Shown: one piece after another, positions 4,951-61,869 of the stretch
Layout: each line of letters starts with the position of its first letter
Numbering within the stretch: position 1 is the first letter of the stretch
Assembly (NCBI GenBank): GCA_032622095.1
Contig: CP136061.1
Location: 55,255,762-55,319,761 of the forward strand
DNA from: Siphonodentalium dalli
Lineage: Eukaryota; Mollusca; Scaphopoda; Gadilida; Siphonodentaliidae
Length of the DNA: 64,000 nt
Direction of reading: 5' to 3'
Translations under genes and position numbers: made by a program
Notes under the pieces: model-generated
Told to the model about the DNA's origin: nothing
What the model saw: the letters and a program-made list of their open reading frames with translations, nothing else
Databases searched by the model: none

Positions 4951-4953
4951 ACC

Positions 4954-5425
4954 TTAAAGGTACTCAATCGGATTCGATGGTCTCCATATCATCAGATTCC
5001 AACAACAACATTTTTGTTTAAATGCCGCTTCAGTTATCAGAATCGATTAATTGCCCAAAAATAATGCTAACTATATACAGTCAACTATATAGTATAAAAT
5101 TGCCCAAAACCTGTTATTTATCAACATTTTGTTCAACGAAATTTTGCCGATTTGTCAAATATCTGACACTGTGAAACAAACAAAAAAACAACTTGATTTA
5201 TGAGTTATCCATCTTCATCCGCAATTTGGTCGGAAACAATCTTCTCGTCGACCTTTACTGGGCCACTAAATATTCCAGGATGAGAAAAATAATAGATTTT
5301 AAAAATCGATGTCTGGTCACTCCGGACTTTGATGGGTGGCTTCCTCGACTCGAATAAAATACCCCCCCCCCCACCCGAAGCCAAATAAATAGTAATTGAG
5401 TGGCGCTTAATCGGATTGAGTCTAA
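4954..5425 (-). mobile_element. Miniature TIR element, family A, copy 1
   Basis: One end reads TTAAAGGTACTCAATCGGAT. The other end reads, as its complement, AATCCGATTAAGCGCCA, an imperfect inverted match. Internal landmarks are shared with copies at 11648, 21070, 33358, 62522 and 63891: TTGTTGTTGGAATCTGAT, ATAACTGAAGCGGC, TGTTGATAAATAACA, GGATGAAGATGGATAACTC and a poly-C run. There is no coding capacity. This copy ends about 50 bp before the leader of gene 1. Confidence 0.75.
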
Positions 5426-5715: not shown

Positions 5716-8700
5716 ATGAATTTATTGCGGTGAGTAAAACTTATTAGTAATATTACCGATTTTCATAGAAGTTCAAGTAAATTGTAACATCAATGTTCTT
5801 ATATATAGGGGACTTATATATGTGACACTGCGTTATCCATTCTGCCGCGGTCGAATTTTCTTGACTCTTCTTTTTTTGTGTGTGTGACAGAGCATAAATG
5901 ATTACTTATAACTCATTTAATATTATGTTTTGCTTGTCCGGATGATATTCTTTAATTAAAGGGCCATATATGACTGAGCGACTCATCACAAAATTCCCCT
6001 TTGGACGATTGCCGATAATTATTATAGTATACTGCGCACATGCCTATTTTTTTCTGTATACTGTATCAGTCCGGAAACGGTGGGCAAGTTTACTCGATAC
6101 ATACAATTCACTTGCCGATGAAACTGTCTAATATGTGTCATATCTATATAATGAACATCGTTTTTTGTTTGATTCTCAGGAACGAACGAAAATGCCCGGA
6201 CCTAAAGGAAGAGATGGATAAGATGTTAGCGGAAAGATATGTTAGAGAAGTTATCTTACCGGGGTCAATAAAGAAGTATGAAAGAGAAGGAATCGTGGAT
6301 GTGATCAAATGTATGCTGGAAAGAGTCGATAAAGTAATTAGAGAACGAGATGATCAGAAGGGAAGAGAAATTGAGAAGACTGTTTGCATGTTGGTTAGTG
6401 ACATCATTCCAGAAGCCATAGACGAGGTTGCAGAAGAAATAAGAATGAAACAAGAGGCTATTATGCAACAAGCTAAAGAGTTAGCAAGTGATGCCATTCA
6501 GGCCGCCGTATTTGAGATGGAAGAAGAGAGAGAACAAGAGAGAAGCCAGCAGGCTAAATTGCTAGTGGGAAAAGTTGTGAAGATGGCTGTGTTGGAAATT
6601 GAAGAAGAGGAAGCGGAGAGAAAAATGTTAGCGTTAGCTAAGGATTTGATACAAAACACAGTGATCCCTAATGCAGTAAAGCAATACGAAAATGAGAAGC
6701 AAAAGGCTTTATTCGAAAAGGAGTTGGCTTATGAAGCTAAGTGGTTGTGTATTGACCTTATAATACCACGTGCTCTCCATGAGGTGGAATTGGAGCTCAT
6801 TGAAGAGCAAGATAATATTATGCATGACCTTATACAGGATGTGGTTATTCCAAATGCATTCATGGAGATCGAGCAGGCGGAGTCGTTGCACAGCCATGGA
6901 CATCCTGAGATCAGACACGTCACCAAAACTGAAGATGTCGACATAGGAAATGGCGAAGAAGATGAGCCCAGAAGTATCTTGTCCCATTTGGTTCGTGGCG
7001 CCGGGGATATAGCAGGTTAGCACATATATGAACATCTCCAAATACATTTTAACCTTTTGATGACGGGAGCTGGCACAGCGTTAAAGAGCATGTGCCAGTG
7101 CATTCTCTTATATATCATATATAAAGAATGTACTAGCTTACATTAAGTTACAAGGTAGATGTAAATAATTTTAGGCCAATGCATTCTCCATATGGGAGAC
7201 TCACATATATAATAGAATGCATTGGCCCATGTGTTTTGCACAATAACGGGAAGCTCCAGTCATTGAAGGATTACAGATACAAACGTGACACCATTCCCAA
7301 ACTAAAATAATAGCAGATGTACCTATAAATGTTCCATGCATATAACGGGTTTTCTTGAATTGATGAGAACTACCATGTAATAACCACTAAAATGGAAAAT
7401 TAAAAAATATAACGATACTATATATATATATGAACAGCATCCTTTTGCCCCACTATAGCTAACAACAGGACCCGAAACAGCACAGACGTGTTGTATCTGG
7501 TCCTGTTGTTACCAGACTTGTATACGTACGCTCAATCATTCTATATTACGTTTTCAGCTGAGTGGGTGTTGGCCAACAAAGAATATGAAGGTGATGCAAG
7601 ATCATATACCAAGGTAAATTGAGTTTTTTTCTTCTGGTTCACTGTTAACATCAACCCAGTCGTTGTAATCGAATTCACTCTACATGCACGTGTCTGATGA
7701 TGTGATCACTGTTTGGAATTTGTCTCAAGGTGGTAATGTTGAATACTGTGTGTATATTTATGTACACACACCAATCAGAACACAAACTAATTATCATATG
7801 TACAAATTGTTCGATCTGGATATATATATTAATGAATGTTATATATATATATATAGTATAGTTTGGATGAACAGTTGTACTCGACGGTATAGTCTCAACA
7901 CCACGAAATAGTACATATTCTCAGAGATAGTCAATGCATTTCAGGTTAATCGTACCATTCACAACATGAGGTGGAACTACAACAACAGAGATGACTCAAG
8001 AATTTTCAAAGATGTATCATGGCAGGCTTGGCTGTTTAAAACTGCACAAATGCCAAAGAAAGGTAACAATCAGTATATATATATATCAATATGTTACACA
8101 TTCATTAATACATTTAATTTGTATTTGCTGTGCACATGGGGACAATAAATATAGGCTGTACCTGAGTGTTGGGTCAATTCATTTAAGTAATGAAAGTAAT
8201 GGAAATTTATTTAAACAAAACACTTTATATTTTACATAATAATATACGATTAAACATCGATACCATGCTATGGGCGGCCATTCGGTCGGAAATTACATGA
8301 AATAAAAGTTAATGGTGGTTTGTGAACACAATTACAATCTATTTCAAAACAATAGTCTCCATTTTCAAACCAATAGTCGTTCTTTGATTCAATAAGAGAC
8401 AATTCCGTGTTAACAGATATAGATTCATAATCAACGTTGACCGATGCTAAATTAATGTTCTATTTTAATTTAATAGCATTCATTGTTCAACTAATATCGA
8501 ATAACAAACAATTAATACAGCTTTGCTCATATTCAGTAAACGTACATTCCGTTTCAATAGCCATATTTTCTCAATCAATAGACAAATTTCAAACCGATAG
8601 ACGATTTCTCACGATCAGTGATTACCGTTATCAAACTAATAGACCTTATTGTAAAACTAATAACTCATTGTAAAACTAATAAATAAAACCGTAATTAACT

Positions 8701-11700
8701 TATTGTAAAACTAATAACTTATTGTAAAATTAATAGACCTTATTGTAAAACTAATAACTTATTGTAAAACCTATATCTAAAACCGTCATTAACTTATTGT
8801 AAAACTAATAACTTATTGTAAAATTAATATAGACCTTATTGTAAAACTAATAATCAATAGACATATTTTAAACCAATATACTCTTTCCCACGATCAATGA
8901 TTACCGTTATCAAACTAATATCTAATAGCGGAATTAACTATTTCAGGTCAAACCAATGAGCTCATTTGAAATTAATGATTAAAACACAAACCTATAAGCA
9001 ATTCGTAAATTAACGCTAGGGGCGCTGGTCACCAATTTTGTTCGCAAAATCCGTGACGTCAGAAATATAGAAATAAACATGGGAGTGCCCAATGTCATGC
9101 CGATGTGACGATTTGGAGTATGAGTTCACTCGGTGCAAATCAAACGACGATAATTATTCACTATATTATATAGGACATATAGTGGAGTAGATTAAGTCAA
9201 ATTTTCAAGGCAATTGTTCAAATTGTTACTAAAGCAATGAAGCATGAAACTTTGCACATATCATGCATGTGTACATCTTCACATACTTTTTATATTATAT
9301 ATGGAGCCACGCTGAAATTTCACTTTAACCCCTCTTTTAAGGGGTTTTCCAAATTTATAGAGCGTTTCGTGATTATATAATTTAATAAATGTCGCAATTA
9401 ATCTCACCATGAAATATACGATTTAAAATTAGGCATATTCAGTACGTGTGACTCTGAGAGATATAATGCCACATTTTTAGGGTAAAATTGGAACTCCCCG
9501 TCCAAGATGGTCGTCAAAATGGCAACTGAAAGAGGAAATTTGACGTGTTTTCGCCAATATCTTCTGGGTCAGTTTCTGCTGTATGTAACTGGTTCAGAAA
9601 TGTGACTTCATTTTGCATTGCTCATGTTAAGAGATAATTGGAGCAATGAATATATGTCATTCGTATGATCCAAGTCCCTCCCGATCCCTCAATAATTCGA
9701 TTATACAAAACTCGGTATGAAATTTAACCAAATATCACCGTTATGAATCTAGTCATATTTTAACAAGAATTTGACAGAACTTTGCAAATTATGACATACA
9801 ATTACTTATGAATTTTTGCACTTAAGTGCAAATATTTTACGTTTAATCACAAATCATTTGCGCTTAAGTGGAAATAGAAATTAATGCATTGATCTCCCTG
9901 AATTAATTTTAAATAGTATAGGCCTAACACATCACTCAAGCAAGCCTGCAAATAGCGTGTTTGTCATTTGCAGAATGAGGTCCACAGAGGGTGAATTTAG
10001 TGATGCTACCCAGCATAGCGGTCTAGCATAACAAAATTCACCCTCTGGGGACCTCATTCTGCTTAGGCCTCATCTTCTGGGAAGTAACTATGGTATCAAA
10101 TTAACATTGTTTTTAGTTACGTTTTCCCATCTGGGAAGTTTCTATATCCCCTAATTTGCAGAAGATAAAATCCATAATCGAGGCTCCAAATGGGTGAACA
10201 TCACCAACTTCAACTGGGGAACTTCAATCTGATCCTAGGACTGCCATAGCCAGTATCCAATAAACTATATCTATCTATCTATCTAGCAGTTGAGAGCCCT
10301 AAGCAGAATGAGGTCCACAGATGGTAAATTTAGTGATGCTAGCCCACTATGCGGTGTAGCGTCACTAAATTCACCCTCTGGGGACCTCATTCTGCAAATG
10401 ACAGACACGCTATTTGCAGGCTTGCACTCAAGTCTATATAGGCCCATCAGATGAGGGAAGCAATCCCCAGTGATCCCTAGATACCGGTACCTTTTATGAC
10501 CATGGAAATGGTATAGATCTGTACAGGATATGTCTCTTTTATAAAATGTAATAGATCTCTGGGATGGAGACACAAATTCTTAGGGACAGGGATGCTGATA
10601 ATATGAAAATAAGTTTTCCCCCTATTTCTATTCAATAAGTACATGTACACCACGAGGGAAGCAAGCCCCCAGTAACCCCTAATTCCCCTTCTATGACCAT
10701 GGAAATGGTATATAGTTGTGCAGGAGATGTCCATTTAATAAAATATACTAGAGCTCTGGGAATGAGGCACCAATTTTGGGACACCAGAGACAGAGATGCT
10801 TTTGACTTTTCAACTTTCGAGTCTGTATGGGCTACTACTATGGGCCCATAATAATATACTATGAGATGGACTCCATCGTTCACACTTAGAGGGAAGTAAA
10901 GGAGTAGTAGGTATTTGCGCTTAAGCGCAAATCATTTACACTTAAAGCGCAAGTGATTCTCGCTTAAACGCAAACAAATTGATAGACACATATTTGTGCT
11001 TAAGCGCAAATGACATTCGCTTAAGCCCAAATTATTTATCCTTAAGCTCAAATATTTGCGCTTAATATTTGTGCTTGAGCGCAAATAAATAATAAATGTG
11101 AAAAGGGCCTCCCATAGTAAGAGGGGACTCTAAATTTCTTGAACATTGAAATTCCCTTTGTTTGAGAATTTGTACATGTTTATATTGAATATTCTCAGTA
11201 AATAATTATTCTGTGTGTTTCAAAAGAAATCAGAATAAATTGTTATTGTTTTTAAGTATCGGTTATAGATAACAGTTAATTAGATTGACTCCCCTCTTCC
11301 CAGATGCATCCTTACTGTGGAAGACCGATCGCCCAGGTCTGTTGGATGGCTCAAACGACTTTTCCCACAATGGCCAGTTTGTACCCTTGATTTGAATGAC
11401 ACATTTAATTGTTTTGTACCATGTTTTTGGTCATTTCACACCATATATTGGTATGTTTCGTTGATTCCCAAAAATGATGAATGGTCATTCGTACATGTAT
11501 GTGAAAAATTATTTTAATCGTGTTAACTTAATGAAAGTGAACATGATTTAACGTTCGTGATGATGACAACCCGACATTTACATGTTAACATATTTCTTTC
11601 TTTTTTTTTCGAAACAAAATGAACAAATTGAAATTGTCGCGACAAAGTTAAAGATGCATAATCCGAATTAACGCCTGAATATTATTATTTCCTTGGCTTC

Positions 11701-14700
11701 GGGGTAAAACATTTTAATTGAGTTGAGGAACCCACCCATCAAAGCTGAGAGTGATCAGATATCGATTTTTGAAATCTATTATTTTTCACCTTCGATAATT
11801 TTTAGTGGCCCAATAAAAAGTCGAAAAAGGACGGATGAAGATGGATAACTCAAAAAGCAAGTGGCTTTTGTTGTGTCAGATATTTGACATACCCGCAAAA
11901 TTTCATTGAACAAAATATTGATAAATAACAGGTTTTGGGCAATTGTATACTATATTTGACTGGTTAGCATTATTTTTGGGGCATTAATGGATTCTGGTAA
12001 ACGAAGTGGCATTTCAAAAAATGGTGTTGTTGTTGAAATATGATGATATGGGAACCATCGAATCGGACTGAGTACCTTTAATGTCATTTTTTTTTTAAAT
12101 AATACCAGTATACTCAAAGGTACGAATTGTCAAAATGATACAGGAACTGGTATGAAATGTCCAGAACCCTGGTGCGAAACATCTCTATGTCAAACTTCCA
12201 TGGTATGAAATGCCAGCAACCTATTCATCCATTGTACATTATCATTGGGGAGGGGGTCCACCTTGATACATGTATGTTCCGACAGCACCCCCTTGGAAGG
12301 AAGTTTCCTACAGGTGGCTACAGGGTACATGTATATCGGTCCAAAAAAAATTCGAAAATTATTAATTAGATATGACATTTTTGCACGATATGGCTTGTTA
12401 TCAAACTCCATTTGTACTTGGGTGAATATCACTTCAATTTGCCCTAAATCGAGTAATATCACTTTACGACATCACTAATTAAAAGTAATACATGTATGAT
12501 TTTATGACATCATGATCTGAGTAATACACGGTATGGCTTTGACATGGTGCAATTCTATTTCACTTTTAGAATAGGCATAGATATCAATTTTGTGTGATGT
12601 CACTCATTAGAAAAAGTTGTCAATATTACACTGTTACTAAGAGGCGAACTACCGTAATTAATAGATACATGTAGGGTATTACTTGGTTGGTTTGATATTA
12701 TAGGCCTGATTTCAGTCCTCAGTAGCCTCATATCAGCCTTCGACGTCAGGCTGGTTGTGATATGAGGTTACCTCAGGGTGATATAGGGCCTAATATCAAA
12801 CCAACGATGTTGGCGCTGCTAGTCTACAGGGTCATTGTCTGGTTGTTCCCCTTGCCGATGAGATATAAGTGGGTACAGGACGTTTTGTATCGTCTTAAGT
12901 CATTTCGTACCATATTTTTGGTAGTTTCGTACCATATTTTTGGTAGTTTCATACCTTATTGTTTGGTCGTTTCGTACCATGTAGGAAATCAATTGGTCAT
13001 TTCGTACCATGTTACTACATGTATGTCACACCATATGGAAGCAAATAAATGATTTTCTACAAAGTACGAAATAAAAAAAAGTAACCGTACCGGTATGTAA
13101 TACCAAAAATTATGGTATGGATTACTATGGAACAATCATGGTTATGGTATCGAATACTGAAATAATGAAGTAGTCACTGCAGTTGTATATATCATTTATG
13201 TGGTCACAATATATGCATGTATAATGCAACCTGTAAGTTGACATGACCTCTGTTCTAGTTGGCTTATGATTGCGTTCTGAAGTGCTCTTCGCACTGTCAG
13301 GTTTACTTGATCAATAATCCAGCAATGTTCAGAATCCTATTCCACGACGCTCGTATGAAACGTCTAGAAAATAGAATCCATATTTAATAAATCCTTCAGA
13401 CATTCAATATTACCGATCGCCTGAATCAACATCTGACTGTTCGAAGCGGTTCCACTCAATGGTTGTTTTCAGAAGAAGTCGTCGCAATGTACAGTGCTAG
13501 TACGCACTACACAGTAGATCGAACGATTATCTTACGGTGTTAGAAATGTTGTTGTTGTTGCTGTTGTTGACATAATCATATTCATACTGCTGTTGTTAGT
13601 ACTTGTCGAACACATCCTAAGTTCTCCACCGGATTTTGACAGACAATCCCTGCATCTGGATCTGGATGGTGTACGGCGTATGATCCTCGCGGATGTGTAG
13701 AACGCCGGGAGAGAGAATTATGTTCTTTGCGGGACTGTTGAGTTGTCCGCTGCTGTTCTATTTTGAATTTCGCATGCGTCCATCTTGTTTAGAGTGTTCC
13801 ACTGAATAATAATTGTCCGTGGGAAGAATGAATTTGAGTATTCAGCAGAGTTGGTCACCATTGGCTCGTAGGACAGTGAATTATTACATTCCTGTTTTGA
13901 GACTATATTTGTGGCACTGAAATTTGCAAATTTCTTGGCTCGGATTTTTCTGCCCACCTTTTTTTGTTTAATTAAGCACTGAGTGTTTACAGCCGACACC
14001 TGCCCCTTAGCCATCTTGTGAAAGAGCTCCAGCCTCTGGTTTTTCCTTCTTTCTTCGAGTGGTCTTATCTCGCAGTCATTCATCAGTTTGGCCATGTCCT
14101 TCGATTGGTAATCGCCGGTCATGAACCGTACACCTCTTCTCAGTATTCGCTCCAGGGCGTCGATGTTCTGCTGCTGGTGAGGACCCCACACGACGGCTGC
14201 GTATTCCAGCGACGATCTTATGAGTGTCTCATACGCTACGCATTTACTCTTGAATGGGGGCTTCCTAAGGTTTCTTCTGATGAATCCGAGCGTGCTGTTA
14301 GCCTTCTTCGTGATCTTGTCTATATATGTGTGGCGACCATTTCATATCGTTTGAGAGCGTGACTCCAAGATATGGTTATTGAGTGACGCTTTGTATGATC
14401 TGGTTTCTGAGCTGGTACATGTAGGTCAGTTGGGAACAGTGATAATCACAGTAATACTGACAGTGAATGAGTTATAGATACTGACAGTGATAGTGATACA
14501 TCAACATCATACAGTCCTCAAATTCGGTTGCTTAATTCAGATCTTCGTATGACGATAATAATGACAATATTAAACACAAGCTCTCAAATGGATCTTCGGT
14601 ATCTGCTACATGTACAGGATATAGTCCACAGTCCGTATATCATCGCAGTTTTCAAGTTCAGGGTAACTTTCTGACGCGAAAATGTTCGAGAACATGCATT

Positions 14701-17700
14701 TTAATTGTTTGGCAGCGGGATATCCCATGTTGACGTCACGGATTGGTGTTTGGTGACTCCAGCAAGATTGGTGGCGGCCCTAGCGTTAATTTAAGATTGG
14801 TGGCGCCCCTAGCGTTCATTGATTTAAGAATTGTTCATTAGTTTGTAAACGGAAGCTATTAATTATGTAGACTCGTCCATTAATTCTGCATTTTTAGTCA
14901 TTGGTTTCACCGGAAATAGTTGATTCTGCTATTAGATATTGATTCGAATACGAACGTTATTAATTTTGCATTGCATAATTTATATCTTTTAAATATAAGA
15001 ATGACAATAAGGTCTATTAGTTTTATAACGATAATCATTGATCGTGGGAAATAGTCTATTGGTTTGAAATATCTTTATTGATTAAGAAAACATGGCTATT
15101 GAAACGGAATGTACGTTTATTGAATATGCGCGAATCTTACTAATTTTGTGTTGCTAGATATTAGTTGAACAATGAATACTATTAAATTAAAATAGAACAT
15201 TAATTTTGCATCGGTCAACATTGATTATGAATCTATATCTATTAAAACGGAACTGTCTCTTATTGAATCCAAGAACGATTATTGGTTTTGAAATGGAGTC
15301 TATTCGTTTGAAATAGATGGCCATTGATTAAGAAAATATGCATGCTATTGATACGGAACCGTCTCTTATTGAATCCAAGAACGATTATTGGTTTGAAAAT
15401 AGAGAATATTGGTTTTGAAATAGATTGTAATTGTTTTCACAAACCACCATTAACTTTTATTTCATGTTATTTCCGACCGAATGGCCGCCCATACCATGCA
15501 CCTATACTGCAAAGCTGTAAGAAGTTGTTATGTTTGTTTGTTTTTTTATGGTTTTATTTTATTTCGTTCTAGAATAACATGATAATTATGATTGTTAGCT
15601 GGGACAACTAAACAGAAACAAGCTGTTATCCTAGATTTTAGTAGGAATCTTAACTAACAAACAAAATGCTAAACATAACAAAACGAAGCAAACAAAATTA
15701 TTAACAGGTTTCCGTTTCTACAGCTTCTGCTCCGTCGTTGTATATATACGTTGTATATATATATATGCATACGTTGTATATATATGCAGGAAGATCTGGT
15801 GTGTTTGTGAATGAAACATCGACGTAATATTATTTATACCACACTGCATGGGTTTGGGACAAGCTATGACAATATAGTCAAATTGTTTGTCAGGCTATAT
15901 AACTTAGCATAATTTTTCATATCAGGTTTGAGTGACACTAATGTGACCAGCTTGGATACGAGACGTATGGCCAGGGGAACGTTGTGGAAGATAAACCGAG
16001 AACGTGAGGATACTGCAGATCAGATGTCCACTTGCCTAGCACCCGAATTCGTGGGAGGTAAGTGCCGGTCAACATCAACATTAAAGTTTCAATCATCTAC
16101 ATGTAGTTCTCTGTTATATAGATTAAGGGTGGATACACACATGCATGTAATCTCTGTAAATATCGTGTATTTGGAGTTTTACATGGATCATACACACCGT
16201 GTAATATGTGTCCGCTGACAACCCAATCATTGCGACTGTGTTTGACCACAGTGAGTTAAACTCTGAACCGCTGAAGAGCCGTTGACTGGGACGAAGTCGT
16301 CAGGCCGCTTAAAATAATTATTCGCGCGATAACTGAAATGGTCGACGTTCTGTTTAAATCATTGTCAGTATTCTATTGATGTTAATACCAGTGGTGGCCT
16401 CTTCCCCAACGCAGGGGGATATGACCCCCAACATGCACGGGGAGCTATATTATCCCAGAAGCTACCGAATTCACCATTGCATATTTCCTCGACGGGGGTG
16501 TGCACGCAGCACCCTGAGTCCTGACACCCTGCTTTATAAATATCGTAGTCATGTCTGTCGTGTCTGTTTTCTACGAGTGATTAATCTAATATGCAGCAAT
16601 TTATGCTATTCATATAATTATGAACATATTATACAGCTTTAAATTTGAATGCATGGTGTTGCTGTTTGTCTTCATTCGGCGAAAGGGTTGCCTAGCTATA
16701 CGAGTTCCCAACTACGTCACCTTTCCTCTCTTGTGTTATACAGTTATACATGTATACGCAAAATTTACAACTATGGAATATTTAAGTAAAACATTATATT
16801 GTAATTCTTGCCCAGATAATTCCGGCTGATACATTCAATTAACTCTCTTAGTTATTGGAAGCTTTCGAGAACCAGCCCCTCCCCCAATTATGGATTATGG
16901 TCGAAAATGTTATAATTCAAGCTGTGACAGGTAGGAGCTTGTTCAACCTTTGGCTTGAGAAACATATATATAAATGGGGGGGGGGGGTGTCACTCTTTTT
17001 AATTTCAACGCTGTACCTGCATTCTTTTTTTGGCGCTATAATGAATATTTGCAATCCCAATTGAATTAATGTTATCACATGAGCTCGCTCTCAAATTATC
17101 AGAGAAATCTCAACAAGCCGGTATCATCCTATAAAATAATTCTGCATATTTTATTTTTGTTTTGGATGACCCTGTTTCCAAGAAATGACAGAAACAAATC
17201 AAGTATAAAATCGACCGGCTCTAATCCACTTTTCGAAATGAATTATAACTCGTGAAAAACAGCAACATATATCAGACAAGAATTACTCATTTCGGCATCC
17301 ATGAAAGAAGACATGTTTATGACTGGCCTGAAATTTCTTGATGGCAGTTTGTTTGATAATGGCTTATAACTACTCACTGGTGAAATTGACCCCTCGCGCG
17401 CAGGTGATTAATTTTGTCAATTATTGGTGTGGCCATGTAAAATACATGTATTTTACATACAGACATTACATGCATGTGTGTATCCACCCTAACCTAGAAA
17501 TAATCGTTTGGAAATGGAAAAGGTTTGGGAATGTAAAAATCGATAGAACAAATCCAGGTCTGCACCCTTTGTTATATGGGTATATCTTTGTAATTCTATG
17601 TCTACATGTCTTTATTTTGGAGCTAGTACAGAAACATCAATGCGATGTATATCATGTATTGATAATAACCACATGAGGGTGGATTATATTCATGCAGAAT

Positions 17701-18847
17701 CTGTAGATTGCCTGTTATTTGTGCGATTACCAACACGCGTACGATCGATTGAAAAAAGGCAGGACTGTGGTGAGACCAGGTTTTGGGTTTGTGGCTTAAA
17801 GGGGTACTGTACGCCATTTTCAATACATTTCCAGTAATAACACCGATCTAAGATCGATAATATATAGAAACATAAGTAATTTGAGTCGAAGATGTATTCT
17901 GTAAACGCTCAGGTTAATAGGTTATCTTAAAATTTAATAATTTAAAAGTTAATAATTTGATATAAATTGAATTTATGGCTCCAGCCATAAAATGGCGTCA
18001 ATTAAATTACGAAATTCCGTAATCAAACAAACTAATTGAGGGATACTGGATTGTTAAACCGATCGCACACACGATCGCTTACAATATTATGATGATACGG
18101 GGAGAACACTCAAGCCACTCACTGACTAGCGACGATACAATAACTTAAATGATTATATGGGACTAGTATGCCTATAATATAACTTTTATTTGATTCATTT
18201 GGTTGAAAACTGTACAAAAATTACTCGACAACGACAATTTGTATTTTTGCATTCCGGTAAATTTATCATCCGTAACACTACTTCGTACTCGACAGACTTT
18301 CAAATAATGAAAAAAATGTTACCTTATTCTCCGACTCGGAGACTATAGAAACCAACAAACAACATTTGGCGTACATTACCCCTTTAACATCTATTTAACA
18401 AACTGCAGCTTACAAATTCAGACTGGAACATTTAAGTTGAGATTGTTTTGATTAGTTTATCTTTTCAATCAATATTATTATAAGTTAAAAATCATATTTT
18501 TTTGGGTTTATCGATATTTTACTTAATTTAAATCAAAATTTAGACTGAAATCTCACATGTTGGAATAATTTCGAAGTTACGGGAATTGGGATGCCATGGG
18601 TTACACGTTGACAAAACGAATCCAAATATGGTGTAAATCATATCATATATTGACAACAAGAGCATCTTTACTCATAATAGAAATTCTTGTTTCAGACAAT
18701 AATGATGTGAAACACTTGCCGCTGGCAAAGTCTGAAACAGTGCGCGCAGGAGAGGTGGGTGACGGACAAGAACCAGTTTCCAAAAAGAAAAGCCGTGGGT
18801 TCTTTCGCCGTCTGTTTAAAAGAGCATCAAAGAGAAACACGAGATGA
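5716..18847 (+). CDS. Six-exon gene for a 435-residue helical-repeat protein with basic C-terminus (unrecognised; AKAP-like helices)
   Basis: Exons are 5716-5729, 6180-7015, 7558-7613, 7945-8062, 15926-16057 and 18696-18847. All introns are GT-AG. Donors are GTGAGT, GTTAGC, GTAAAT, GTAACA and GTAAGT, and acceptors are of the TTTCAG or TATCAG type. Joined length is 1308 nt, or 435 codons plus TGA, with no internal stop. Exon 2 encodes seven copies of a module of roughly 20 residues, at about residues 21-40, 70-91, 103-121, 130-149, 158-175, 190-210 and 218-237. The consensus is A-K-x-L-(I/V)-x-D-(I/V)-(I/V)-P-x-A-(I/V)-x-E-x-E, an amphipathic helix with an acidic end. Exon 6 ends in SKKKSRGFFRRLFKRASKR, a basic amphipathic tail. 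There is no signal peptide or membrane segment. The family is not recognised. The helices look like RII-binding AKAP helices (AKELASDAIQAAV, for example), which is inference. Exon 1 encodes only MNLLR and is the least certain part. Confidence 0.85.
7060..7262. mobile_element. Decayed copy or relative of the TTAA hairpin element (family B) in intron 2
   Basis: It contains GTGCCAGTGCATTCTCTTATATATC and, 100 bp on, GGCCAATGCATTCTCC with its inverse ATAGAATGCATTGGCCCA. These are the internal hairpin sequences of the 400-bp elements at 32231 and 32773. The TTAA termini are not clear here. Confidence 0.5.
8271..9062 (+). repeat. About 790-bp dispersed repeat (family G), + copy in intron 4
   Basis: One end reads GGGCGGCCATTCGGTCGGAA and the other AAAATCCGTGACGTCAG. 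The body is a degenerate array of short AT-rich units around AAACCAATAG and TTATTGTAAAACTAATA. An inverted copy with the same two ends lies at 14731-15493 in the same intron. The ends are not mutual inverted repeats, so the class is unknown. Confidence 0.7.
9336..9356. other. Short GC hairpin
   Basis: AACCCC and GGGGTT flank an 8-base loop inside AT-rich intron 4. Only the stem is visible; no role is inferred. Confidence 0.3.
9941..10434 (+). mobile_element. hAT-like miniature element, family C, copy 1
   Basis: It starts CAAGCCTGCAAATAGCG and ends with the inverse, GCTATTTGCAGGCTTG. It is flanked on both sides by CACTCAAG (9933-9940 and 10435-10442), a perfect 8-bp target duplication. Each end also folds on itself: the AGGTCC(A/C)CAGAGGGTGAATTTAG block is followed by its own inverse. 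An 8-bp duplication and CA...TG tips fit the hAT superfamily. A (TATC)n microsatellite sits inside at 10268-10284. Confidence 0.85.
10450..10900. repeat. Tandem pair of about 200-bp diverged units
   Basis: The text GAGGGAAGCAA(T/G)CCCCAGT then TATGACCATGGAAATGGTATA recurs at about 10453 and 10656, followed in each case by a CAGGA(T/G)ATGTC block and an AGAxCTCTGGGA block. The copies are diverged, so this is an old duplication. No gene is visible. Confidence 0.55.
10912..11096. repeat. Dense cluster of GCGCTTAAGCGC palindromes
   Basis: Around nine full or half copies of TTTGCGCTTAAGCGCAAA occur in 185 bp, spaced irregularly at about 15-35 bp. Many differ by single bases. The same motif occurs at 1569-1836 and 9815-9865. 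Confidence 0.7.
11648..12082 (+). mobile_element. Miniature TIR element, family A, copy 2
   Basis: It starts TTAAAGATGCATAATCCGAA and ends CGGACTGAGTACCTTTAA; the ends are imperfect inverted repeats. The internal text matches copy 1 in inverse orientation. It lies in intron 4 of gene 1. Confidence 0.8.
12687..12804. mobile_element. 118-bp hairpin element
   Basis: TTGGTTTGATATTATAGGCC at the left is matched by GGCCTAATATCAAACCAA at the right. The two arms pair over about 55 bp with a short loop near GACGTCAGG. Size and structure fit a snapback miniature element or an RNA-hairpin source. It is in intron 4. Confidence 0.7.
12895..13020 (+). repeat. Minisatellite, about 20-bp unit around TTTCGTACCATATTTTTGG
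   Basis: Five consecutive or near-consecutive units of TTTCGTACCAT plus TTTTTGGTAG, decaying to the right. Related single units occur at about 11410-11460 and, inverted, at 12145-12205. Confidence 0.65.
13547..13570. repeat. (GTT)n microsatellite
   Basis: GTT units interrupted once by GCT. Confidence 0.8.
13718..14385 (-). pseudogene. LINE reverse-transcriptase C-terminal fragment, frameshifted, antisense in intron 4 of gene 1
   Basis: The - strand encodes the region after the RT palm of a jockey/CR1-like non-LTR element. Landmarks are YAAVVWGPHQQQN-like text near 14190, ALERILRRGVRFMTGDY at about 14150, PLEERRKNQRLELFHKMAKG at about 14050, and FFPRTIIIQWNTLN at about 13820. The reading upstream of 14190 (LGVTLSNDMKWSPHI) is in another frame, so at least one frameshift separates the parts. 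The catalytic (F/Y)ADD core is absent. The longest open part is 14191-13718, 157 codons. Confidence 0.8.
14731..15493 (-). repeat. Family G repeat, inverted copy in intron 4
   Basis: It carries the same two ends as 8271-9062 in reverse: TGACGTCACGGATT on the left and TTCCGACCGAATGGCCGCCC on the right, with the same AT-rich internal units. The two copies could pair in the pre-mRNA. Confidence 0.7.
15735..15790 (+). repeat. CGTTGTATATATA short tandem repeat
   Basis: Three spaced copies of ACGTTGTATATATA just upstream of exon 5 of gene 1. Confidence 0.6.
16058..17795. other. Intron 5 of gene 1, first part
   Basis: About 1.7 kb between exon 5 and a TTAA element. It holds a poly-G run near 16977-16987. 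Short open frames here lack coding features. Nothing else recognised. Confidence 0.5.
17796..18387 (+). mobile_element. TTAA-flanked miniature element, family H, copy 1
   Basis: It begins TTAAAGGGGTACTGTACGCC and ends GGCGTACATTACCCCTTTAA. A reverse-oriented copy at 29676-30242 shares the ends and the internal landmarks TTATGGCTCCAGCC, GAGTGGCTTGAG-type text and AATTGTCGTTGTCGAGTAA. TTAA at both borders fits a piggyBac-type target. Confidence 0.75.
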
Positions 18848-43696: not shown

Positions 43697-44008
43697 TCAA
43701 TGACCGCATAACTTGGCCATCTCGTCCAGGAAATATACTTCATCTATCTCGCGTGGTACACTATCTTGAAATGACGTCTGGAAATTTCTAAGGCACGACA
43801 CTTTCTCTTCTGTGGGGTCACTCATAAAATAAAGTTCTGTATCTTCATATATGTTCCCACAAATACATTTTGGATCATCAGTCAGGAATCGCTCAAACTT
43901 ATGTGCTTTTAAATCACTACAACCAAGGCGTAATCTCGCATGTATTATCTGTGTGAGACTGTGTCTCACGTTTTCCTTCATAAAAATAAACTGGAATAAT
44001 TGGATCAC
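43697..44008 (-). pseudogene. LINE C-terminal fragment (zinc-motif end)
   Basis: The reading HARLRLGCSDLKAHKFERF then DDPKCICGNIYEDTELYFMS is the C-terminal end typical of I/RTE-like LINE ORF2 proteins. The family pattern is CxC...H...C. The His is Leu here (TELYF for TEHYF) and the last Cys is Asp, so the motif is dead even though about 100 codons are open. It is antisense to, and abuts, another LINE fragment. Confidence 0.7.
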
Positions 44009-44790
44009 CCCGTTTCAGAGTGTATTTCAACAACGAAATTGATTTTTGAGTTTCAATACCTTGGTGTTTTATTTTCTCATAATGGACGTTTTTGTCAAGC
44101 AGTGAAGAAAACGTGCACGGTTGCAACAAGGGCTATGTGCGGACTCTTAAACAAAATATATAAACTTAATCTGTCTATTGACTTGTCACTTAAATTGATT
44201 GATCGTACAGTTTTACCTATCATCATCTATGGAAGTGAGATATGGGGTTTCGAAAATGTTGACTGTCTTGAAAAGATTCATCTCAAGTTTTGTAAGATAA
44301 TATTAAACATGAAGATGGATGAATTCCATTTTGTTTTAGAATGTGCCGTAATTAAAGACCTCAGAGAGAAATACATCCCACAATATTATTGGAAATATCC
44401 CGTTAGAGAGAAATTCCACGATTTACTCACTATATGTAACGTGGCAATACTAAAACGACTTTGCATATTTCTCAAACTTGCATTCAAATGGATAAAATAG
44501 TAATCTCACACGAAGGAAGCGGTGAAGCTGGAGGTACAGAACATAATGGAAAGAGCTAGTATTTCCGTTTTGTTGTGTAAATCCCGTTTCATTGTTAAGA
44601 AAAAAATGAAAATACTACCGCACTGAAATTATTCATCGAATTTTATACCCAGTGCCACTTAGCCAGTTCGGTAAAATTCATCTTTGTATATATGTATATA
44701 TATTGTTGACTAATGTATGTTATATTCATATTATGTACGTTGTCAAATACCATGTGTTATTGGTGGAGCAATAAATCAATCAAATCAAAT
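44000..44790 (+). pseudogene. LINE fragment: post-palm RT region and 3' tail
   Basis: 44000-44500 is open and reads FEFQYLGVLFSHNGRF, AVKKTCTVATRAMCGLLNKI, LSLKLIDRTVLPIIIYGSEI and LEKIHLKFCKIIL, the segment after the (F/Y)ADD block in many invertebrate LINE proteins. After about residue 112 the family pattern is lost, so a deletion is likely. A 3' untranslated part ends in AATAAATCAATCAAATCAAA at about 44770-44790. The palm is missing. Confidence 0.75.
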
Positions 44791-47623: not shown

Positions 47624-47639
47624 CTGAAAATAGATGGCA

Positions 47640-50330
47640 CAAAACATAAATTACTTTGTTCAACCGAAAACATGCACTGTATTGAGTGTAAGGTACATTC
47701 TCAGAAAATTGTGGCATTTAGATAGTGCGACTCTTTTATTTCCAAGACCCCCCACGAGAGCTGTCAGAAAATGGTTCCAAACATTACTGTTATGCAAGAC
47801 TGCCCTGGTTAAGTGTCAGGAGATATCAATAATTAATACAACTGATTCAAAACAGGTAACTTGTTTGGACCACATGGTAATTGCCATGTCCCCCTGGCTC
47901 AATTGCTGTAAAATCGATATGAGATATTCCAAAATGCAAAGTAGCTGGTCAGATTAAGCTTCAATTGACTTATCTCAGAGTGTTGACAGACAGCGGTCGG
48001 TAACTGTGGGTCTAAATAAACGCCTAACACAAAACGTCACAATGCGGAATTGCATGCGAAAACAATCGTCTGTTTCTTGTCATGTAACAATTGTCCATAG
48101 ATTTCAAAGGTCAACCTGGTCTATAGCCCAATTATTGATGACAATACTGACCCAGAAATTCCAATTTCGCGGGCAACTTAGTGACCTATATAGTGAACCA
48201 CTTCACCTATTTGTATCAGTGCAAAATATGTCTCGGCGCGTTCCCACGTGTATAAACAACCACTTGTCGCCGTACTACAATTCTTCAGTCGCGGATGTGG
48301 TTACCTCCCTTACATAAGCACTGTATAAAATTGCATAAAAGCGCGCGAAAAAGATGACCTACTTCAAAGACATTTGTTGAATATCTATGGCAATTTACCA
48401 CGTGCTGTTTCAATACATAAACACATTTCCACTTGAATCGAAGAATTTGTGTCAACAACCTGTTGATTGTTTACTCAACATCTGTTTTCGTTGTACTTGA
48501 GTAATTTCGTACTTAAGCCGCGCTCGAGTAATTCCACTCATTTTACAGCCCTGTTTGCACCAGCTTGCGATGAGAAAGTTCATTTGTCCTGTTTATTATT
48601 CCAGCAGATAGGCCTCCTTTAGTGGGATATAGTAGACGGTTGGGGTTTATTGACTAGTGGGAAATTGTCTACGAATTTTCTCATGTCATGCTGTGTCTTG
48701 ACTGGCTGCCGGGGAGCGCGGGAATCTAACTATTCCAGCTCTGTGAAATCTAACTTCACTCTTGATGGCGGGGAGGGTCAGACAGAAAGTGGAAGTGGGA
48801 CCGCGAAGAGTCTGTGATCAATATTTGATAGTTATGGTATACTGACGTTTATTGTTACGAAAACAACACGAGAACTGAAATCTGGCGAAAGCATGAAAAC
48901 TTACATCCCTGGTGGATATAGTTCTGATTGCAAAATACTCACCATTAAATTAAACCTCCAGAATTCAGGCTAAATCTTGGCCTCTGTTTGGGATAGAATG
49001 CCCACATCGTAGATCCACCTGGTCTGGTACTATGGATTCGGTAGCATGGAGGTCTTTGTTTTATGGACGTTTTGGGCGCCGGCATTTACCAATCACACTT
49101 AGTTCATCTAAACGTTCCAATCCATCCTCTCAACAATCAATAACTCTGTCAACTGCATGTACATCAATCTGGAAATAGACAATAATAATTAGATTTTATT
49201 CAGTAGAATATTTGCTAAATTGTTTGACATATCGCATAATGTACCAGTAATTGGCCATACAGTGGCTGATGTTGCCAACTTGCCATACCATCCTCTTAAA
49301 ATGAAATAAAGAAGTTTTTATATTTCGATAAAACTTTTGTCTCACAAGAAGAATATGGTGACACATTGCAAGGGAATATATATGGAAAATGAAGGACTAG
49401 TCAAAAAGTATGTGGTATAAATATCGTTTCCCAGAGCAGCATATAAACTTATATTTTCCCAGGAGATGGTTCAGTGGGAAATGTAGATGTAGATACCCAA
49501 AATCGTAAGTAGAAAAAGAAGTAGAAATTAACTAAATACTACAGTATCAAATGTGGATACTCGCCGAATAAATACCACGTGTTTGAATACACACTGTTCT
49601 AGCTTTGTTCGTGTTTTATCGTTTGTTTTGTTGGTATTAATGGTGCCATTATGATGGGGAAATAATTACCTCCATAGTGGGATGGCTGGATCACAGGTTA
49701 CTCTGACATCACTTTTTCATTTGCTTCGCGTATGTTCCGGCTACGTCATAAGTGCATTTTCTCTTTCTCGTCTTCATAAAATCTACAAAACATGAAATCG
49801 ATGGTGAGGCAGAGCACATCACAATGGTTGGGATGCATTGATAATAAAAGGGTGGGATTCATATTAAACCACTTTTTATCAGTTTGCAACAGAAAGGACA
49901 TATACATGTGGATGAAAAGAAAATTGACGTATTGGGTGGGGAAAGGTTATGACAAATATCTGTAGCAGAACAACTGACTATTTTAGACCAGGAATATTTC
50001 ACAATTTACAGAATATTTTCAAACATGCAGGGTATGTAGTTTTAGATTTTAATTCTTGTAAGTCAGAAATATGAGGCACCCAGTCTTTTAACGATGCAAG
50101 CATTTATGCAAATACAATTTCAGAGTTGGAATTTGATTGGGACAGCTCTGGACAATTGTTTTACAAGATTAACAAACTATTTAATACATGTATACTGATT
50201 TACATTTCAAGCTACTTGTATTTCGCGTGTCGAGCTTATAGTACACACATTCACGACTTTTATATCTTTGACAATACGCTATGGTCTAGCAAAAGGCAAC
50301 GCGTGTGTTTACGAGGGCTGAATATGGCAA
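47640..50330. other. Stretch without supported genes
   Basis: Relatively repeat-poor, mixed composition DNA. Several splice-like signals exist on the - strand but none gave a convincing exon. It may hold untranslated exons or promoter of the - strand candidate exon at 47623. Confidence 0.4.
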
Positions 50331-51502: not shown

Positions 51503-52083
51503 TCAGCTTTCTAAAATCCGGGACGTGGGAAGACGTCTAAGCGAGAGTGTGCGATACGTAATATTATACAGCTAAAAGATATAGGCCACTCACCGACTAT
51601 CCTGCTCTGTAACCAGTTCTGTTTGACCTTCTTTCTCGATTTACAAATGGATCTGGTGACTTTACTATGCTTACTACGCGGGGTACTACAGCACTGTGGA
51701 TCGAAATTAGTCGTGCACTCTGCAACGCTGTCAGTGTTCGTAGATAAGTCCAAATTGTCGTCTGCATCAGGCATCGTTCGGAAAGCACGTAACACAATCT
51801 CACTACTCTTGGTTCTCCTGTGAACGTCCCTTCTGTAGAATTCAGGCACATATTCCTCTGCTGAGATAGAACTCCACTCGAGAGCGTTTGTCTCGCTTAT
51901 GTCCTCCATGGGCGTTTCCGCCGTGAAATCAAAATTCCACTTTTGTGATTTTTCTTGAATGTGTGAATCATATTCCAAATCCGACCACAAGTCATCGTGT
52001 TCAACAGGTCCGAATAAATTTCGACAAACTCCAGGTTTTCGTGTGTTTGTAGTTGAAGTTTCCATCATAGTAGAAGTTAGCAT
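51503..52083 (-). CDS. CIP/KIP cyclin-dependent kinase inhibitor (p27/p21/dacapo family)
   Basis: The product should bind cyclin-CDK complexes and restrain S-phase entry. From ATG at 52083 the reading has the whole kinase-inhibitory domain. CRNLFGP (residues 20-26) is the cyclin-groove RxL motif. SQKWNFDF (46-53) is the strand pairing with the CDK N-lobe. PEFYRR (80-85) is the ATP-pocket helix with its Tyr. The acidic middle is followed by STPRSK (133-138), placed like the p27 Thr187 CDK site, and by a basic nuclear-localisation-like KSRKKVKQ (148-155). The upstream frame to 52155 starts at TTG, so ATG 52083, or ATGs 15 and 18 nt later, is preferred. Open reading continues past 51594 to a stop at 51511. 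However, a GTGAGT donor at 51593 and an acceptor at 51512-51511 would end the protein after V163 with two more residues and TGA at 51503. Either way it is about 165-190 residues, the usual size. Confidence 0.92.
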
Positions 52084-52154
52084 GGTTGTAATAATCGAGG
52101 TCACTACAGCGTGTGTGAAACGTAAGAGTGTAATGTAGCCGGGATGCTGAGGCA

Positions 52155-52270
52155 AACAAATTTATGCAAGCGTCGTTTTCAAATGGGACCAATCAAATCG
52201 CTCTTCGCACCTTCCACGTGCGGTTTATTGACAATCGAGTTGTGCTCTTCACCAGCTAATGGGCGGAGTT
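52155..52270 (-). promoter_or_regulatory. Promoter region of the CDK inhibitor gene
   Basis: Upstream of the start lie a CCAAT motif (52189-52193 on the + strand), a CACGTG E-box (52215-52220) and a GGGCGG GC-box (52261-52266). GC- and CCAAT-boxes are also found in vertebrate p27 promoters. Activity here is inferred. Confidence 0.45.
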
Positions 52271-61358: not shown

Positions 61359-61814
61359 CTACACACAGAATGTTAGCAACTCATCGGGCGGCGCCCTGTA
61401 TACATCAGGTCGATATGTTGCTGTTTGATAGAAATCCATGCACTGACCCGTCTTAATCTCTGGAACAGAAAGGAATATATGGACCGATAAAGGTTTTAAT
61501 CTTTTGCGGAATAGAGTCATGACGGGAATCATTTTGGGTCGACTATGGGATCGAATTTCGCTGACGCAAAGTGTATCTAACCTTGGCATTTGAAATGCTC
61601 TAGATATGTCAATCTTGAATTCTTGGGTTTGGGGTCCATATAGATTTAGCTGATATCGGAGTTCTGACAATCTTCCACTGTTTCTCGGAGCTTTATAACC
61701 ATGCCATTCCCATATGGTAGTGGCCGGTCGCGCACGCACGGCCCCATTAATAGTTACATACAGGATGAGGAATAACAAAACAACATAAGCTGCATGGAAA
61801 CTTAAATATGGCAT
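61359..61814 (-). CDS. Secreted-protein-like ORF, 151 residues (unrecognised)
   Basis: From ATG at 61814 the reading begins with a classical signal peptide: MPYLSFHAAY, then VVLLFLILYVTING, then AVRARP, a likely cleavage area around residue 25-30. A TATATAAG sequence lies about 40 bp upstream (61852-61859). The mature part is mixed and charged, with Cys in DTLCVSEI and TGQCMDFY. The ORF stops at 61359, but a possible donor ACGG|GTCAGT near 61447 could end a first exon there, and candidate exons lie 0.6-0.9 kb downstream. The longer frame starts at GTG, so this ATG is the first plausible start. No family is recognised. Confidence 0.4.
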   Translation of the reverse strand: MPYLSFHAAYVVLLFLILYVTINGAVRARPATTIWEWHGYKAPRNSGRLSELRYQLNLYGPQTQEFKIDISRAFQMPRLDTLCVSEIRSHSRPKMIPVMTLFRKRLKPLSVHIFLSVPEIKTGQCMDFYQTATYRPDVYRAPPDELLTFCV

Positions 61815-61869
61815 GAAATATCTGTTTTCAAGCACTCGTATATCTGTAAACTTATATAAGAAAATCTAA

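Follow-up and report, generated by a model that had tools for sequence, protein, structure and literature searches.

Here, we tentatively propose that a gene at positions 5716-18847 (+) of the window (the whole 64,000-nucleotide stretch of DNA analysed) encodes a multivalent scaffold that may dock dimerisation/docking (D/D) proteins, either PKA regulatory subunits or their ciliary relatives. The gene structure, an internal repeat of eight modules, their spacing and their hydrophobic periodicity are established by the sequence alone. The preliminary description had seen in the repeat a series of A-kinase anchoring helices, a label (AKAP) that appears narrower than the evidence supports, because the D/D fold, which recognises helices of this kind, is also present in many proteins other than PKA; the fold is described as a broad superfamily with many non-PKA members (PMC8339350, excerpt).

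Six exons join in phase into 435 codons followed by a TGA stop, and each of the five introns begins with GT and ends with AG. The start, end, exon number and uninterrupted 435 codons given in the preliminary description were correct, and all phases agree. Splice sites were scored with a rough weight table, against every GT or AG in the window as background, and single-exon codon usage is given as the number of controls, out of 1000, that equal it:

5716..5729, + strand: exon 1, the first 14 coding bases; ATG with A at -3; donor GCG/gtgagt in the top 0.05% of GT sites
6180..7015, + strand: exon 2, 836 bases, holding all eight helix modules; acceptor top 0.07%, donor top 1.0%
7558..7613, + strand: exon 3, in phase; acceptor top 2.3%, donor top 1.3%; codon usage 10/1000
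7945..8062, + strand: exon 4, in phase; weak acceptor, top 17.6%; donor top 2.5%; codon usage 350/1000
15926..16057, + strand: exon 5, in phase; acceptor top 5.5%; donor GAG/gtaagt top 0.03%; codon usage 9/1000
18696..18847, + strand: exon 6, containing the stop; weak acceptor, top 18.9%; codon usage 42/1000

The five donors thus all rank in the top 0.03-2.5% of GT sites in the window, and the acceptors of exons 2-6 are mixed, from the top 0.07% of AG sites (exon 2) to the top 18.9% (exon 6). When a codon-usage score trained on exon 2 was applied to exons 3-6 joined, the predicted frame scored -0.10 per codon and its two alternatives -0.30 and -0.36. The joined exons outscored 2000 of 2000 random segments of the window, an easy control in that such segments may hold stops, and just one of 2000 stop-free pieces of like length, drawn from both strands, scored as well. 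Exon 4 is the least supported internal exon, with phase and splice sites as its evidence, because 350 of 1000 stop-free controls match its codon usage. The start site is less certain: another start is possible because exon 1 has only 14 coding bases and the frame of exon 2 (open over 6028-7017) reaches upstream of the exon 2 acceptor to 6028. It is quite improbable, in our judgement, that the chain is partly wrong, with exon 2 real and exon 1 or some of exons 3-6 belonging elsewhere. The tiny first exon, the acceptors of exons 4 and 6 (reaching only the top 18-19%) and the missing codon signal of exon 4 taken singly would fit such an error, but the phases agree throughout with no stop, the joint codon signal of exons 3-6 is rarely matched, and an inserted element explains the one long intron. 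A partly wrong chain would, in any case, be compatible with any functional reading of exon 2. Hence, as far as the sequence can show, the six-exon model holds. The gene is probably of animal origin.

The long intron is intron 4, whose 7863 bases are mostly the inserted element and which measures 632 bases without it:

8269..15493, no strand assigned: terminal-inverted-repeat mobile element in intron 4, with matching inverted ends TATGGGCGGCC...

The motif CCATGC flanks this element on both sides (8263-8268 and 15494-15499). Nested in it is an open frame at 13721-14341 (-) that by eye resembles the terminal part of a LINE reverse transcriptase; its only Pfam match is DUF6293_C (E 0.056, below cut-off). 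A repeat occurs twice in opposite orientation, its pieces 82-93% complementary, at 4951-5360, just upstream of the gene start, and at 11711-12084, within the element. Elsewhere in the window, frames at 44000-44497 (+) and 43700-44014 (-) resemble LINE fragments by eye and have no Pfam match at E<=1, and a frame at 47634-47954 (+) has a weak, below-cut-off match to the Tc5 transposase C-terminal domain (E 0.042); nine other frames screened alongside the latter gave no Pfam match at E<=0.1. An open frame at 51514-52161 (-) matches the Pfam family CDI (cyclin-dependent kinase inhibitor) above cut-off at E 7.6e-9, as a KIP/p27-type gene, which suggests that the DNA is from an animal. A 168-residue frame at 61362-61865 (-) has by eye a hydrophobic, signal-like segment close to its start and no Pfam match at E<=1. 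Scans of the whole window for tRNAs and against Rfam gave no match.

The internal repetition of exon 2 is real. Over residues 1-255, the ten best self-matches average 39.0 against 22.96 in shuffles, a value reached by none of 300, and the single best self-match was equalled or beaten in one of 300. The preliminary description had recognised the repeat and counted seven copies; there are eight, the second (M2) being diverged and in register. The single pattern that it gave, A-K-x-L-(I/V)-x-D-(I/V)(I/V)-P-x-A-(I/V)-x-E, fits only loosely, as the modules fall into two spacing types:

6229..6282, + strand: M1, residues 22-39; insert/proline type; 6/7 docking positions with the insert
6304..6357, + strand: M2, residues 47-64; diverged, in register; 4/7 docking positions; no proline
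6382..6435, + strand: M3, residues 73-90; canonical type; 7/7; has a proline
6472..6525, + strand: M4, residues 103-120; canonical type; 7/7; no proline
6553..6606, + strand: M5, residues 130-147; canonical type; 7/7; no proline
6637..6690, + strand: M6, residues 158-175; insert/proline type; 7/7 with the insert; AKAP7-like
6736..6789, + strand: M7, residues 191-208; insert/proline type; 7/7 with the insert
6820..6873, + strand: M8, residues 219-236; insert/proline type; 7/7 with the insert

Anchored on their first hydrophobic pair, the modules are spaced 28.1 +/- 2.5 residues apart (steps of 25, 26, 30, 27, 28, 33 and 28). M1, M6, M7 and M8 have one extra residue mid-helix, followed by a proline; in all, five of the eight (M1, M3, M6, M7 and M8) have a proline inside the module. 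With a net charge of -20, the module region is strongly acidic.

Likeness to RII-binding helices was assessed with the published docking frame LxxxAxxIVxxAIxxA, which has seven hydrophobic positions (PMC3682517, excerpt), taking A, V, L, I, M, F, C, Y and W as hydrophobic by our own choice. Residues 1-255 contain six matches against 0.67 expected, a count reached by 9 of 5000 shuffles, and these lie in three helices (M3 in three registers, M4 in two, M5 in one). A 12-residue AKAP expression, to which we prefer the published frame, gave seven matches against 1.0 expected, with a maximum of seven in 2000 shuffles.

The hydrophobic period points in a similar direction. Over residues 20-236 it is 4.0 residues, with a power reached by none of 1000 shuffles, and the helices of AKAP7, AKAP10 and RSPH3, their letters taken from PDB alignments, have periods of 3.9-4.1. 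The AKAP7 and AKAP10 helices dock PKA, and the RSPH3 helix used here would dock D/D proteins. A two-stranded coiled coil has a hydrophobic period of 3.5 residues. Of two coiled-coil controls, GCN4 gave 3.5, whereas tropomyosin had a weak peak at 4.65; the discrimination is therefore poorer than the GCN4 result by itself would imply. The 4.0 period is thus suggestive of a docking helix and may not suffice to exclude a coiled coil. Taken singly, M3, M5 and M7 have periods of 3.8-3.9, M1, M6 and M8 of 4.4-4.5, and M2 and M4 of 3.6-3.7, nearer the coiled-coil value. The pattern emerged only from a scan over angles; at 100 degrees the hydrophobic moment gives no separation between the module region (0.27) and the remainder (0.28).

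Similarity searches add to this in one module. A Pfam profile search of the 435-residue protein gave no AKAP-family match at E<=10 (the search filters discard most matches above E 0.1), and M6 alone matched the AKAP7 family AKAP7_RIRII_bdg (PF10470) at E 0.017 and 15.6 bits, below the curated cut-off of 22.7. The seven other modules, searched singly in Pfam, had no AKAP-family match. None of 50 pattern-preserving shuffles of M6 matched AKAP7_RIRII_bdg at E<=0.1; the same shuffles matched nine unrelated families, each a single time, with a lowest E of 0.0079. Because anchoring proteins had been named before the search, the M6 match deserves more weight than its E-value suggests, though still little. 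The only Pfam matches of the spliced protein, PurS and DUF4047, and a DUF1221 match of M3 alone (E 0.097) were taken as noise. Against the PDB by sequence, the whole protein had four matches (best E 0.093), a seven-module profile leaving out M2, which aligned badly with the others, had three (best E 0.53), and M6 and M5 singly had none at E<=10. Relatives of exon 2 were absent from viral contigs and prokaryote genomes, as expected of an animal gene.

Compared directly, M6 and the AKAP7 helix align with a score of 52 and one gap, which 27 of 20000 pattern-preserving M6 shuffles and 17 of 20000 AKAP7 shuffles reach; corrected over 24 pairs this becomes ~0.03, or 0.065 counting both alignment modes. 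Among the 24 module-helix pairs, four ungapped (M6-AKAP7, M4-AKAP7, M4-AKAP10 and M1-RSPH3) and three gapped (M6-AKAP7, M1-AKAP7 and M1-RSPH3) reach <=25 of 500 shuffles, against 1.2 expected, and the remaining pairs are ordinary against 500 shuffles. Summed over modules, the similarity was equalled by chance in 9 of 300 for AKAP7, 29 of 300 for AKAP10 and 176 of 300, that is at chance, for RSPH3. The AKAP10 helix itself matches a designed repeat of helices (E 1.8e-4), which shows that helices of this kind can be similar where no function is shared. The direct module-to-helix similarity is thin.

How does this protein compare with known systems? M6 aligns nearly full length with the RI/RII-binding helix of AKAP7/AKAP18 (PDB 4ZP3; PF10470) with one inserted residue, but the match is below cut-off and M6 carries a proline besides the extra residue. 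AKAP7 has a single docking helix, unlike the eight modules here. With the AKAP10/D-AKAP2 helix (PDB 3IM4, 2HWN), M3 shares M-[IL]-V-S-D and M4 aligns ungapped, a marginal likeness (37/500 and 19/500 shuffles, respectively, ungapped). AKAP10 includes an RGS domain, whereas Pfam finds none in the 435 residues. Multi-site AKAPs of the AKAP11/AKAP220 type have more than one PKA site per protein, few and dispersed, in contrast to the even array here. The Pfam family marking radial spoke protein 3 is the Radial-spoke 3 domain. RSP3/RSPH3 (PDB 8J07, 7JTK), the radial-spoke scaffold, has one helix with a proline after the hydrophobic pair, as in M3, but the protein described here has no Pfam relationship to it at E<=10. 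By Pfam, then, the protein belongs to neither the AKAP7 nor the RSP3 family. RSP3/RSPH3 docks D/D proteins via amphipathic helices (PMC8339350, PMC12399478, excerpts), and we infer that its proline-bearing helix is the one that binds DPY-30, from PMC12399478 (excerpt) and from the fact that it lies beyond the segment, residues 96-180, that served as RII-type helix construct in Chlamydomonas RSP3 (PMC4901443, excerpt). Among the literature matches listed, no comparable helix array is described in the titles and opening lines of the abstracts.

AKAPs are defined by binding to a PKA regulatory subunit, and the AKAP claim is supported in part. The likeness to RII helices is supported by the 4.0 period, the six frame matches and the M6 match, but only three of eight modules have the canonical spacing; four others fit once a single residue is inserted, and five of the helices contain a proline. 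An AKAP docking helix is expected to be unbroken, without proline. V12P variants of two ciliary AKAP helices (FAP65) did not bind (PMC9746132, excerpt). A proline does not by itself exclude docking, because the RSPH3 helix (PDB 8J07) has one too. M3, M4 and M5 would be the likeliest binders and M2 the least likely.

A less probable yet serious alternative to a docking scaffold is that the modules are structural, packing together as a helical bundle or oligomeric rod and binding no D/D domain. Prolines and an extra residue would suit kinked packing helices, the periods of M2 and M4 lie near 3.6, and no docking family rises above cut-off in Pfam. An AlphaFold2 model of exon 2 is mostly helical over its residues 8-236, as packing would have it, although we read the model as neither supporting nor excluding a bundle, because its pLDDT is 47 and its pTM 0.27. 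The period of the full module region, 4.0 and not 3.5 residues, speaks against packing, though one of the two coiled-coil controls also missed 3.5. That the helices instead bind lipid surfaces with help from a basic aromatic tail is very improbable: repeated amphipathic helices and such a tail are present, but typical lipid-binding repeats are not strongly acidic, unlike the net -20 of the module region.

Within the D/D scaffold reading, a narrower form would have the helices dock only non-PKA D/D proteins, in the manner of RSP3/RSPH3; the protein would then serve as a scaffold in cilia or sperm tails instead of anchoring a kinase. We consider this restriction unlikely, and its probability is part of that given to the scaffold as a whole. 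The RSPH3 helix (PDB 8J07) has its proline directly after the hydrophobic pair, as does M3, and M1 resembles that helix (9/500 shuffles gapped, 16/500 ungapped); the summed similarity to RSPH3, however, is at chance, and no radial-spoke Pfam domain was found at E<=10. Kinase-free D/D proteins do occur in cilia. SPA17-ROPN1L binds AKAP18 at 82 nM, and RSP7-RSP11 are reported to be held by RSP3 in a complex in which PKA was never detected (PMC8339350, excerpt); yet RSP3 itself is still treated by others as a PKA anchor (PMC12760996, excerpt).

In light of the D/D scaffold being our preferred explanation, what might its mechanism be? Docking, partner, geometry and location are all inferred here. 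The N-terminal half would consist of eight amphipathic helices in series, one every ~28 residues, and each of them would fit, or would once have fitted, into the groove of a D/D-fold dimer. Candidate partners are the PKA regulatory-subunit dimer or a PKA-free relative of the ropporin, SPA17 or Dpy-30 type. Several such dimers could be aligned on one polypeptide, each gripping one module, with a step of ~4.2 nm between dimers if 28 residues formed a straight helix. A stronger version, which we regard as quite improbable, is a docking rail that would carry up to eight D/D dimers, one per 28-residue interval, and on which the three canonical and four insert/proline helices would read two kinds of D/D domain, for example those of PKA regulatory subunits and of ciliary D/D proteins. 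At the other end of the protein, a basic tail from codon 415 (at 18782) has a net charge of +10 over the last 25 residues and includes aromatic residues. AKAPs carry a targeting region, and this tail may act as a tether; whether it would do so to membrane or to microtubules is a guess. The tail, SRGFFRRLFKRASKRNTR, contains KRAS, which by the PKA site consensus is a possible PKA site.

If binding is true, this protein would be an unusually multivalent anchor, with one gene setting the local density of a kinase or of ciliary proteins, and its eight natural helix variants would reveal the effects of a proline and of a one-residue insertion on D/D docking. If there is no binding, the array would show how readily repeated amphipathic helices mimic kinase anchors.
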